Below are positions 60,218 to 64,000 of a DNA stretch of 64,000 bases, in pieces (position 1 is the stretch's first letter; each line of letters begins with the position of its first letter). The notes under the pieces were generated by a model. That model did no database searches. It was not told the origin of the DNA and was given only the letters and a program-made list of their open reading frames with translations. The DNA is from Comamonadaceae bacterium. Its GTDB lineage: Bacteria; Pseudomonadota; Gammaproteobacteria; Burkholderiales; Burkholderiaceae_C. The DNA is taken from assembly GCA_947371915.1 (NCBI GenBank), contig CANBRM010000001.1:39236-103235 (forward strand). Reading direction: 5' to 3'. Position numbers and translations under genes: made by a program.

Positions 60218-61894
60218 ATGATGAATCGCCCATGGCTGAGCGCCTATCCTGAGGGTGTGCCAGCTGATATTGATACGAGCGCTTACGCCTCGTTGGTGGA
60301 ACTGATGCAAGACAGTTTCAAGCGCTTTGGCGATCGGCCTGCGTTCAATTTCATGGGGCGCAACATGTCCTATGCAGAGTTGGACCGTCTGAGTCAAGTG
60401 TTTGCGGCCTACTTGCAAGGGTTGGGGTTGGTGGCCGGTGACCGTGTGGCCATCATGTTGCCCAACGTTTTGCAATATCCGGTGGCCGTGGCTGCGGTAT
60501 TGCGCGCAGGCTTTGTGGTGGTCAACATCAATCCCTTGTACACGCCGCGCGAGTTGGAGTTGCAGTTGAAGAACTCCGGCGCGCAAGCCATTGTGATTCT
60601 CGAAAACTTTGCCGCCACGCTGCAGCAGTGCATCACCAAAACGCCGGTCAAACATGTGGTGTTGTGTGCGATGGGCGACCGTTTGGGTTTGCTCAAAGGG
60701 TTTTTGGTCAATCAAGTGGTGCGGCGGGTTAAAAAAATGGTGCCCCCCTTCGAGTTGCCAGATGCCGTGCGTTTCAACGAAGCCTTGTCGTTAGGCGAGC
60801 GCAGCACGCTGACTTTGCCCACCATCACCGGCGACGATTTGGCCGTGTTGCAGTACACCGGCGGCACCACGGGTGTGTCAAAGGGGGCTGAGTTATTGCA
60901 CCGCAATTTGGTGGCCAACGTGTTGCAGTCTGCGGCGTGGAATGACCCCGCGCTCAAGCGCGTTCCGGCCAACGAGCAGCTGACCTTTGTGTGCGCTTTG
61001 CCGCTGTATCACATCTTTGCGTTCACCATCAACATGATGCTGACCATGCGCATGGGTGGCTGCTCTATCTTGATTCCCAATCCGCGTGATTTACCGGCGG
61101 TGCTCAAAGAGCTGTCCAAGCATCGTTTTCACATGTTCCCTGCGGTCAACACCTTGTTCAATGGCTTGGCCAATCACCCAGATTTTGGGACGGTGGACTG
61201 GTCGCATCTGGTGGTGTCTTTGGGTGGTGGAACGGCTGTGCAAGGGGCTGTCGCCAAACTTTGGCTCGAGAAGACAGGTTGCCCCATTTGCGAAGGTTAC
61301 GGCTTGTCTGAAACCAGTCCTTCGGCCAGTTGCAACATCGTGACCAGCGCGGCTTACACCGGCAGCATTGGTGTGCCGATTCCTGGCACCGAAATGAAAA
61401 TCGTCGACGACGATGGGCGAGAGGTCGCGCCAGGCGTGCCAGGCGAAATTGTCATTCGTGGCCCGCAAGTGATGGCGGGCTACTGGCAGCGCCCCGATGA
61501 AACCGCGCGGGTGATGACACCCGATGGTTTCTTTAAATCGGGCGATGTGGGCGTGATGGACGAACGTGGATTTTTCCGCATCGTAGATCGCAAAAAAGAC
61601 ATGATTTTGGTCAGTGGCTTCAACGTCTACCCCAACGAGGTGGAAGATGTGGTGGCCAGTTTGCCGGGCGTGCTGGAGTGCGCGGTGATCGGTATTCCGG
61701 ATGAACGTTCGGGCGAAGCGGTCAAGTTGGTGGTGGTCAAAAAAGACCCTGCGTTGACCGAAGCTGACGTGCGCGAACATTGCAAGCAAAACCTCACCGG
61801 CTACAAAATGCCCCGAGTCATTGAGTTCCGTGCGGACTTGCCCAAAACCCCTGTGGGCAAAGTGTTGCGCCGCGAATTACGCGATCAAAAATGA
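60218..61894 (+). CDS. fadD: Long-chain-fatty-acid-CoA ligase
   Basis: 558 aa. AMP-binding loop YTGGTTGVSKGAELLH, GYGLSETSPSA, then WQRPDETARVMT, FFKSGDVGVMDERGFFRIVDRKKDMILVSGFN, and the catalytic Lys near PVGKVLRRELR. Activates fatty acids for beta-oxidation. It starts 2 nt after pntB and runs into mtnN with a 4-nt overlap, so transhydrogenase, fatty-acid activation and nucleosidase genes may share one transcript. Confidence 0.93.
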   Translation: MMNRPWLSAYPEGVPADIDTSAYASLVELMQDSFKRFGDRPAFNFMGRNMSYAELDRLSQVFAAYLQGLGLVAGDRVAIMLPNVLQYPVAVAAVLRAGFVVVNINPLYTPRELELQLKNSGAQAIVILENFAATLQQCITKTPVKHVVLCAMGDRLGLLKGFLVNQVVRRVKKMVPPFELPDAVRFNEALSLGERSTLTLPTITGDDLAVLQYTGGTTGVSKGAELLHRNLVANVLQSAAWNDPALKRVPANEQLTFVCALPLYHIFAFTINMMLTMRMGGCSILIPNPRDLPAVLKELSKHRFHMFPAVNTLFNGLANHPDFGTVDWSHLVVSLGGGTAVQGAVAKLWLEKTGCPICEGYGLSETSPSASCNIVTSAAYTGSIGVPIPGTEMKIVDDDGREVAPGVPGEIVIRGPQVMAGYWQRPDETARVMTPDGFFKSGDVGVMDERGFFRIVDRKKDMILVSGFNVYPNEVEDVVASLPGVLECAVIGIPDERSGEAVKLVVVKKDPALTEADVREHCKQNLTGYKMPRVIEFRADLPKTPVGKVLRRELRDQK

Positions 61895-62652
61895 CCCGGC
61901 TTGCGCTGGTCAGTGCCATGCACGAAGAGCTGGCTGCTGTGTTGGCGCGCATGCCCGACGAGCAAAAAACTGTGGTCGCAGGCCGCGAGTTTTGGGTGGG
62001 ACATTGGCACGGCCATGAGGTCGTGGCTGTGCTGTCTCGCATTGGCAAGGTCGCGGCGGCCACCACGGCCACAGCGCTGATTGAGCGATTTGGTGTGACC
62101 CGCATGGTGTTCACCGGCGTGGCGGGCGGTTTGGCACCACACGTGAACGTGGGCGATGTGGTGGTGGCTCGCGAGTTCGTGCAGCACGACATGGACGCCT
62201 CGCCGCTGTTTCCCCGCCATGAAGTGCCGCTGACGGGCATGACCCACTTTCCCGCAGATGCCACGTTGCGTGATGCCTTGTTGGCCGCAGCGCCCTTGGC
62301 GTTGGCCGATTTGGTGCAAGGTTTGCCACCTAGCGATTGGCTAGGTTTGGCGCTGGATGCGGCGCAGGTTCATCAAGGCTTGGTGGCCAGTGGGGATCGG
62401 TTCGTGTCGACCAATCTTGAAAGTTCTGAGTTGCAGCGGCGTTTGCCGCAAGCATTGGCGGTAGAGATGGAGTGCGCGGCCATCGCGCAGGTATGTCACG
62501 ATTACGGCGTACCTTTGGCCGCCGTGCGCACCATTTCAGACCGTGCAGACGACGCGGCGCATGTGGACTTTCCCCGCTTCATCCAAACCATTGCCAGTCG
62601 CTACAGCGTGGCCGTGTTGGACCGCTTGCTGGCGCAGTTGCCGGTGTCGTGA
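61891..62652 (+). CDS. mtnN: 5'-methylthioadenosine/S-adenosylhomocysteine nucleosidase family protein
   Basis: 253 aa. LVSAMHEELAAVL, VFTGVAGGLAPHVNVGDVVVA, VEMECAAIAQVCHDYGVP with the Glu, and AVRTISDRADDAAHVDF with the catalytic Asp. Clears MTA and SAH by cleaving adenine. The 4-nt overlap with fadD is seen directly. Convergent with corA. Confidence 0.93.
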   Translation: MTRLALVSAMHEELAAVLARMPDEQKTVVAGREFWVGHWHGHEVVAVLSRIGKVAAATTATALIERFGVTRMVFTGVAGGLAPHVNVGDVVVAREFVQHDMDASPLFPRHEVPLTGMTHFPADATLRDALLAAAPLALADLVQGLPPSDWLGLALDAAQVHQGLVASGDRFVSTNLESSELQRRLPQALAVEMECAAIAQVCHDYGVPLAAVRTISDRADDAAHVDFPRFIQTIASRYSVAVLDRLLAQLPVS

Positions 62653-62691: not shown

Positions 62692-63678
62692 TTACTTCAA
62701 CCAGCCGCGTTTGCGGAAATACCACATGGGTACCAACGCACTCGCCAGCATCAACGCCAATGCGAACGGATAGCCCCACGTTTGGTTGAGTTCGGGCATG
62801 TACTGGAAGTTCATGCCGTAAATGCTCGCAATCAACGTCGGTGGCAGCAGCGCGACGCTGGCCACCGAGAAGATCTTGATGATCTTGTTTTGGTTGATGT
62901 TGATGAAACCGACCGTAGCGTCCATCAAAAAGTTGATCTTGTCGAACAGGAACGCGGTGTGGTTGTCGAGTGATTCAATGTCGCGCAAGATTTGGCGCGC
63001 TTCTTCAAACTGGTCGGCATTGAGCATGCGCGAACGCATCATGAAGCTCACGGCACGGCGGGTGTCCATCACGTTGCGGCGGATGCGGCCGTTCAAGTCT
63101 TCTTGGCGTGCGATGGCACCCAGCACATCACCGGCTAAGGCGTCGGTCACGTCTTCGGAGAGCACCAATTTGCCTGCTTTTTCGAGCTGGTCATAAATGC
63201 CTTCGAGGGTGTCGGCGGAGTATTCGGCATCCGCGTCAAACAATTTGAGCAGCACTTCTTTGGCGTCTTCGATCAAGCCTGGGGCGCGACGGGCACGCAT
63301 GCGCAGCAAGCGAAACACGGGCACGTCTTCGTCGTGGATGGAAAAGAGCACGCCACGACTTTTCAAGGCATCGTTGTTTTGGTTCAAGATGAACGCCACG
63401 CGCACGGTGCGTGGTTCGTCTTCGTCGGCGATTAAAAAGTCACTGCGGATGTGCAGTTCGCCGTTGTCTTCTTGGTAAAAGCGGGCGGATTCTTCAATGT
63501 CTTCGTCCATCGCATCTTCAGGGATGGACAGGCCGTAATACTGTTTGATCCAGCGCTTTTCTTCGACCGTGGGGGCTTCAAGGTCGACCCAGATGGGTTG
63601 AAATTTAGAGAGTTCTTCCAGCGACTCGATCTCTTCTTGGAAGAGTCGGCCATTGGCCAGCGTGAAAATATTGAGCAT
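62692..63678 (-). CDS. corA: Magnesium/cobalt transporter CorA
   Basis: 328 aa from the ATG at 63678. Large cytoplasmic funnel (about 1-265), two C-terminal helices, and the pore signature YGMNFQYMPE at the end of the first. Homopentameric Mg2+ channel. Its 278-bp upstream gap contains a structured leader (see 63688-63815). Confidence 0.95.
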   Translation of the reverse strand: MLNIFTLANGRLFQEEIESLEELSKFQPIWVDLEAPTVEEKRWIKQYYGLSIPEDAMDEDIEESARFYQEDNGELHIRSDFLIADEDEPRTVRVAFILNQNNDALKSRGVLFSIHDEDVPVFRLLRMRARRAPGLIEDAKEVLLKLFDADAEYSADTLEGIYDQLEKAGKLVLSEDVTDALAGDVLGAIARQEDLNGRIRRNVMDTRRAVSFMMRSRMLNADQFEEARQILRDIESLDNHTAFLFDKINFLMDATVGFININQNKIIKIFSVASVALLPPTLIASIYGMNFQYMPELNQTWGYPFALALMLASALVPMWYFRKRGWLK

Positions 63679-63687
63679 GGCGTTCCT

Positions 63688-63815
63688 TGTGCGTGTGGCA
63701 CCGAAATTCGAAGGAGGTGAAATGCAGCTTTCGAATCCGTGCGGCACGAAGGCCTGATGCGATCCGAAAGCTACCGACTAGGGTAGGTTTCCAAGGAGAT
63801 ATCTCCGCTGTTGAA
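63688..63815 (-). promoter_or_regulatory. Structured 5' leader of corA
   Basis: On the corA strand the leader has several self-complementary elements: palindrome GGAGATATCTCC (63795-63806), a 5-bp CTACC/GGTAG stem (63771-63775 with 63782-63786), and an 8-bp AGCTTTCG/CGAAAGCT stem (63726-63733 with 63765-63772). CACCTCC near 63711-63718 could sequester a ribosome site. I do not match it to a named riboswitch. It may be a metal-responsive leader, by analogy with mgtA/corA leaders; this is inference. Confidence 0.5.
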
Positions 63816-63956
63816 GTGGCTTGAATTATGGCACTTGGTCCGACGGCGCTAGGGGTTTTCAGCAGGGTCTTTTTACGAAATCTTTGCATGCAACCTCTTG
63901 TGTTTTCTGCAAGCTGAGCGCATAGTGAAACTGCCAATTCACTCTAGGAGGCTTTT

Positions 63957-64000
63957 ATGAACTTGACGATCAGTGGTCACCATCTTGAAGTTACGCCCGC
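63957..64000 (+). CDS. hpf: Ribosome hibernation promoting factor, 5' end only
   Basis: Only the first 14 complete codons are in the window: MNLTISGHHLEVTP, the start of HPF/YfiA proteins that dimerise idle ribosomes. Perfect AGGAGG ribosome site ten bases upstream. Divergent from corA. Confidence 0.85.
   Translation, partial: MNLTISGHHLEVTP

Follow-up and report, generated by a model that had tools for sequence, protein, structure and literature searches.

The window (the whole 64,000-nucleotide stretch of Comamonadaceae DNA analysed here) contains a corA gene encoding a CorA-type Mg2+ transporter of 328 aa with 43% identity to E. coli CorA. Its start codon is at 63678-63676 on the minus strand and the divergent hpf gene starts at 63957 on the plus strand (in one relative, L002, the hpf product is assigned to Ribosomal_S30AE), which leaves a gap of 278 bp, as given in the preliminary description, with the corA leader to be read on the minus strand. 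A plus-strand reading was considered and set aside; the fold is stable there, yet conservation tracks corA rather than hpf. In many relatives recovered by a genus search the leader remains with corA and the hpf start is about 1.5 kb away. Convergent with corA in the window is a phosphorylase-superfamily gene (61891-62652; PF01048, MTA/SAH nucleosidase-like), and a similar gene apparently lies past the corA stop codon in a distant family member (L152). The minus-strand order in the leader is extended -10 element, GGAG/CTCC, short ORF, stem P1 and then the corA Shine-Dalgarno, and the features, with the basis of each, are as follows.

63825..63833, minus strand, extended -10 promoter element TGCCATAAT of corA (comparison of leaders)
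63795..63806, minus strand, ORF Shine-Dalgarno GGAG (63806-63803) and the complementary CTCC (63798-63795), a small hairpin before the UUG (sequence)
63771..63794, minus strand, short upstream ORF, TTG GAA ACC TAC CCT AGT CGG TAG = METYPSR*, putative CorL-type leader peptide (conservation)
63724..63774, minus strand, stem P1, with 5' arm 63774-63761 (overlapping the ORF stop codon) and 3' arm 63737-63724 (covariation)
63675..63760, minus strand, competing fold P2, in which the P1 loop and 3' arm (63760-63725) pair with 63719-63675, including the corA Shine-Dalgarno and start codon (predicted fold, coevolution)
63683..63688, minus strand, corA Shine-Dalgarno AAGGAA (sequence)
62692..63678, minus strand, corA (PF01544, E=9.6e-54)

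The sequence TGNNATAAT is present in 132 of 134 distinct Comamonadaceae-type leaders, mostly 27-31 nt to the 5' side of the short ORF, and corA transcription probably starts near 63819. A generic promoter scan of the window leader did not flag the -10 element, and a terminator scan of the same leader found no intrinsic terminator. A transcription start downstream of the stems had been named as a refuting condition; it looks unlikely because the conserved TGNNATAAT precedes the ORF and abuts corA in several relatives that have no leader. In five of these leader-less loci (L033, L084, L269, L271 and L274) roughly 8-22 nt separate the -10 element from the corA start codon downstream, which suggests repeated deletion of the leader and the production of very short or leaderless corA mRNAs. 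The preliminary description recognized a structured leader in this gap but missed both the promoter and the short ORF.

The ORF peptides in the 134 leaders share the consensus M-[E/D]-x-x-P-S-[R/W]. The second codon specifies Glu or Asp in 132 of them; the fifth specifies Pro in all 134, with its third position saturated (CCT, CCG and CCC are about equally frequent), and the sixth specifies Ser in 127, with switches between AGT and TCT. The start codons are TTG (69), ATG (34) and GTG (31), in a set gathered with a pattern that demanded a start codon, and most of the loci missed by that pattern still have ATG, GTG or TTG at the site. A conservative-substitution test scores +1.12 per codon in frame 0 versus -0.16 and -0.30 in the other two frames, and none of 68 distinct copies has an in-frame stop within codons 2-7. 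From these patterns of conservation we infer that the ORF is translated. Variovorax-type leaders have CAG in place of the stop codon and the ORF continues (...QLSTP...). An exact GGAG-N(3-6)-CTCC arrangement is present in 39 of 133 leaders, with a relaxed form in 10 further, and the GGAG/CTCC hairpin is paired in the predicted window fold. The window ORF contains a single acidic residue and a single proline, which constitute a weak destabilising signal. The leader peptides of L093 and L096 begin MEPDPSWQLSTP, alternating acidic residues and prolines in a way that recalls the destabilising N-terminus of MgtL, and most relatives retain only E2 and P5.

The folding energy of the whole minus-strand leader is ordinary relative to shuffled sequences (z=0.09), and because single-sequence folding is not significant, comparison was needed. 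Eighty corA loci were fetched from related genomes, and the alignment covers 47 leaders between the -10 element and the end of P1, a stem that starts at ORF codon 7-8 in nearly all leaders. The pairing and covariation of P1 across this alignment bear out the earlier proposal of a structured corA leader. The stem at 63726/63772 had been singled out, with compensatory changes named as a check; in the window its arms (63726-63737 and 63761-63772) are complementary at 11 of 12 positions, and in the 47 leaders 89.7% of cells are paired with compensatory changes at six pairs. The covariation score is 0.312, compared with 0.158±0.012 for shuffles, with none of 500 shuffles reaching the observed value; slid registers score far below the true one, and a self-versus-cross pairing test gives P=1.3e-7. 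Because pairing is retained, six pairs are compensated and no shuffle attains the score, P1 is, on comparative evidence, a genuine RNA stem. RNAalifold applied to whole P1-to-corA alignments recovered P1 alone, because the registers of P2 vary among subgroups. Another candidate, P0, a pairing inside the ORF, is 81% paired with no compensatory changes, and we make no claim for it.

Further nested complementary segments had been described, and the competing fold P2 does occur besides P1. With the 5' arm of P1 made unavailable, the predicted fold of many leaders joins the loop and 3' arm of P1 to the sequence downstream and to the corA Shine-Dalgarno, and the P2 predicted in the window likewise takes in the corA Shine-Dalgarno. 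Among 74 leaders less than 80% alike, the P2 segment folds more stably than its dinucleotide-shuffled versions (mean z -1.9, P=3e-13) and the corA Shine-Dalgarno is more often paired (0.776 vs 0.651 in shuffles, P=5e-8). Mutual information over all column pairs was dominated by the split between Variovorax and the others and was replaced with an alignment-free coevolution test, in which the 5' part of each leader is paired with its own downstream part or with those of other leaders. Self-pairing is favoured by 5.3 kcal/mol (P=2e-8), the effect is abolished by reversing the second strand (P=0.98), and against only the eight most similar leaders it is still -4.1 kcal/mol (P=9e-7).

Because the P1 3' arm is common to both folds, P1 and P2 are mutually exclusive, and the P1 and non-P1 states are predicted to lie within a few kcal/mol of each other (mean -2.6). 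Forcing P1 gives a modest rise in the mean predicted accessibility of the corA Shine-Dalgarno (0.26 vs 0.17, P=6e-7). The free window RNA is predicted to hold P1, yet its Shine-Dalgarno is largely paired through a local hairpin, and the switch is therefore not directly visible in the window fold. Blocking the whole footprint of a terminating ribosome raises the mean accessibility (0.36 vs 0.27), a tendency with the opposite polarity to that expected from the corL analogy discussed below. The comparative data thus support a P1/P2 switch but not its polarity.

A covariance model of the leader (R1) matches nine of the ten genomes sampled in the window's family and, across the order's other families, none of 290. 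A wider sample of the family gives matches in 203 of 400 genomes, representing 71 of 126 genera, always with one match per genome, and all 37 of the matching loci inspected are directly upstream of corA. Comparison thus supports the promoter element, the ORF, P1 and P2, and a leader that occurs once in each matched genome, upstream of corA. Genome G000 also has a second CorA-family gene (L112, G000:C16:12129-12863), and a brief look upstream of it revealed no evident similar leader.

Twenty genomes of the family have corA without an R1 match, and 12 of these have a divergent short ORF, with peptides such as MDSDHPR*, MDPSHPR*, MDSHPR*, MDKPPSR*, MEASPSPSR* and MQPDPR* and a stop-codon stem that is mostly different. 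No such ORF was seen in the others of the twenty, in several of which the extended -10 element adjoins the corA start codon. A sub-lineage with MDSDHPR* or MDSDHSR* upstream of corA (L276, L277, L279, L280 and L285) has a different stem at its UGA stop codon, CCGUC-CACUCC : GGAGUG-A-GACGG, which is nearly identical across several genera. Because this stem carries a bulge, searching the divergent leaders for ungapped stems mostly gave results no better than the null, and the bulged stem is only suggestive, with part of its pairing imposed by the search pattern itself. Inspection of corA leaders in other sampled gamma- and betaproteobacterial groups revealed no such ORF.

The peptide resembles that of the E. 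coli leader gene ysgD/corL, a TTG-initiated ORF (MDTPSRYWLTILSSRINS) whose product starts MDTPSR; the corresponding peptides in relatives of E. coli include MDTPSRCW, MDIPGRYW, MDIPSRPSLL and MDSHSRY. The score of METYPSR against MDTPSR is matched by 9 of 200,000 random peptides, and forms that bridge the two groups occur in the window's family (MDSHPR*, MDSDHPR* and MDKPPSR*), with MDSHPR* resembling the gammaproteobacterial MDSHSRY. The peptide is likely, though not proven, to be homologous to E. coli CorL. No homology is demonstrated for the RNA parts, since R1 finds no match in the E. coli-type leaders L224, L254, L255, L257, L258 and L267. It is quite conceivable, if not the reading that we favour, that the CorL of Enterobacterales-type gammaproteobacteria and this ORF arose independently and have only their regulatory logic in common; the failure of R1 on the E. 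coli leaders and the lack of such an ORF in corA leaders of the other sampled groups are consistent with this, and it is opposed by a residue order and composition that match beyond chance, by the shared UUG start and by the bridging peptides MDSHPR*/MDSHSR.

Intracellular Mg2+ sets corA expression in E. coli through the corL leader, which has two RNA states and on which Rho acts; corL translation reportedly represses corA when Mg2+ is high, and in both E. coli and Salmonella it is inversely related to corA expression (PMC11552253). We consider it probable that the corA leader described here is a leader-peptide attenuator of the CorL kind, and by analogy it is most probably a corL-like, ribosome-read Mg2+ attenuator of corA. 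Transcription would begin near 63819, and a ribosome would load at a poorly accessible site, with GGAG in the small hairpin and a UUG start, and make METYPSR*. Because the ORF stop codon sits in the P1 5' arm, the position of the ribosome could control P1 versus P2, such that its progress and dwell time would decide between P1 and the pairing of the loop and 3' arm with the corA RBS region. At high Mg2+, efficient translation of the ORF would favour P2 and the OFF state, by analogy with E. coli and Salmonella corL; at low Mg2+, ribosomes would stall or drop off early, P1 would form and corA would be expressed, and the destabilising residues behind this stalling or drop-off would be the acidic one at position 2 and the proline at position 5. 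In this scheme the response to Mg2+, the polarity assigned to the switch and any role for Rho are inferred. A more ambitious proposal, and one that we hold as doubtful, is that there is an ancient beta/gamma CorL family of which the Comamonadaceae form is a seven-codon ribosome sensor of Mg2+, in which drop-off at low Mg2+ flips P1 and P2 and opens the corA start translationally.

Other readings of the leader fare less well. The leader could work chiefly through termination by Rho in the C-rich sequence that follows P1, as for Salmonella corA, with Shine-Dalgarno pairing secondary: on leader average the region from P1 to the Shine-Dalgarno is 44% C and 17% G, compared with 31% and 30% upstream of the promoter, and Rho acts on the E. 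coli corA leader (PMC11552253). However, in L114, a leader nearly identical to the window's, this stretch has a C content of just 34% over about 32 nt, which is little room for a rut site, and there is no intrinsic terminator; we consider it unlikely that Rho termination is the main output. Less probable again is that ribosomes terminating on METYPSR* only cover the anti-Shine-Dalgarno side and open the corA RBS by translational coupling or ribosome recruitment, with no metal sensing. In favour of such coupling are the sequestration of the Shine-Dalgarno by P2 and its greater mean predicted accessibility under a terminating ribosome, but corL translation is inverse to corA in E. coli and Salmonella (PMC11552253), and simple coupling has no need of a conserved E2 and P5. 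A ligand- or metal-binding riboswitch in which the short ORF is incidental, the reading of the preliminary description, does fit a metal-transport gene whose leader is structured and covaries, but it seems very improbable given that there is no Rfam match, the invariant nucleotides belong to the promoter, to the ORF and to the foot of the P1 stem, no conserved unpaired pocket is left by a P1 loop whose length and sequence both vary, conservation follows codons, and a sister sub-lineage retains the ORF while its stem sequence differs.

Of the metal-sensing RNA first proposed, there remains a structured and covarying corA leader outside the Rfam classes, with nothing that points to a metal-binding aptamer. 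The metal (Mg2+) is likely to be the signal, by analogy, and sensing is more likely to be by the translating ribosome, because the conserved core is a coding ORF that overlaps a stem and its peptide is like E. coli CorL.

CorA is the main Mg2+ channel and has long been regarded as constitutive. Its control by corL is a recent demonstration in E. coli (PMC11552253), and for Comamonadaceae and the rest of the Betaproteobacteria our searches of open-access papers turned up no description of a leader of this type. With corL-type leaders spread over at least 71 genera in another family of proteobacteria, leader-peptide control of corA would be general, and if the leader is CorL-like, such control would reach a large set of bacteria from fresh water and soil. 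The more than 100 natural leader variants, together with several natural deletions in which the promoter adjoins corA, provide material on how a ribosome reads Mg2+.

Among known systems, the M-box (ykoK, RF00380) is likewise a metal-responsive leader of Mg2+ transport genes, but it has no Rfam match here and its classical form lacks the upstream-ORF logic. The preliminary description could place the leader in neither the M-box nor any other named class, and Rfam scans, one of them at E up to 10, agree, returning nothing relevant, including the M-box and the mgtA Mg2+ sensor. The mgtL leader of mgtA shares early acidic residues and prolines in a leader governing a Mg2+ transporter, and a few of the relatives here start MEPDP; the mgtL peptide is longer and proline-rich, however, and the system is Rho-dependent and controls a different gene.

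The short ORF mgtQ is located between mgtC and mgtB in Salmonella. There, a swap of stems under the control of a short Asp/Glu ORF frees the RBS of a Mg2+ transporter, and a very short acidic ORF precedes the transporter gene as it does here (PMC8092293). The alternatives are stems 1:2 plus 3:4 versus 2:3, with the RBS within 3:4 (PMC8092293), and the corA leader shares the topology in which the transporter RBS is sequestered in the 3:4 stem, as seen in the excess of Shine-Dalgarno pairing over shuffles and in the P2 predicted for the window. By comparison, mgtQ is intergenic within an operon, encodes another peptide and has been experimentally tested, and the 1:2 stem here is without covariation support.

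The corL leader of E. coli differs in the length of its ORF (18 codons, versus seven in the window) and in being described with a three-way junction and Rho sites, where the present leader has a stem that starts at the stop codon and a fold that takes in the corA Shine-Dalgarno. Shared between them are a short ORF between the promoter and corA, a UUG start, a peptide beginning M-[D/E]-x(1-2)-P-S-R, two mutually exclusive RNA folds, which here are computational, and a related transporter downstream.
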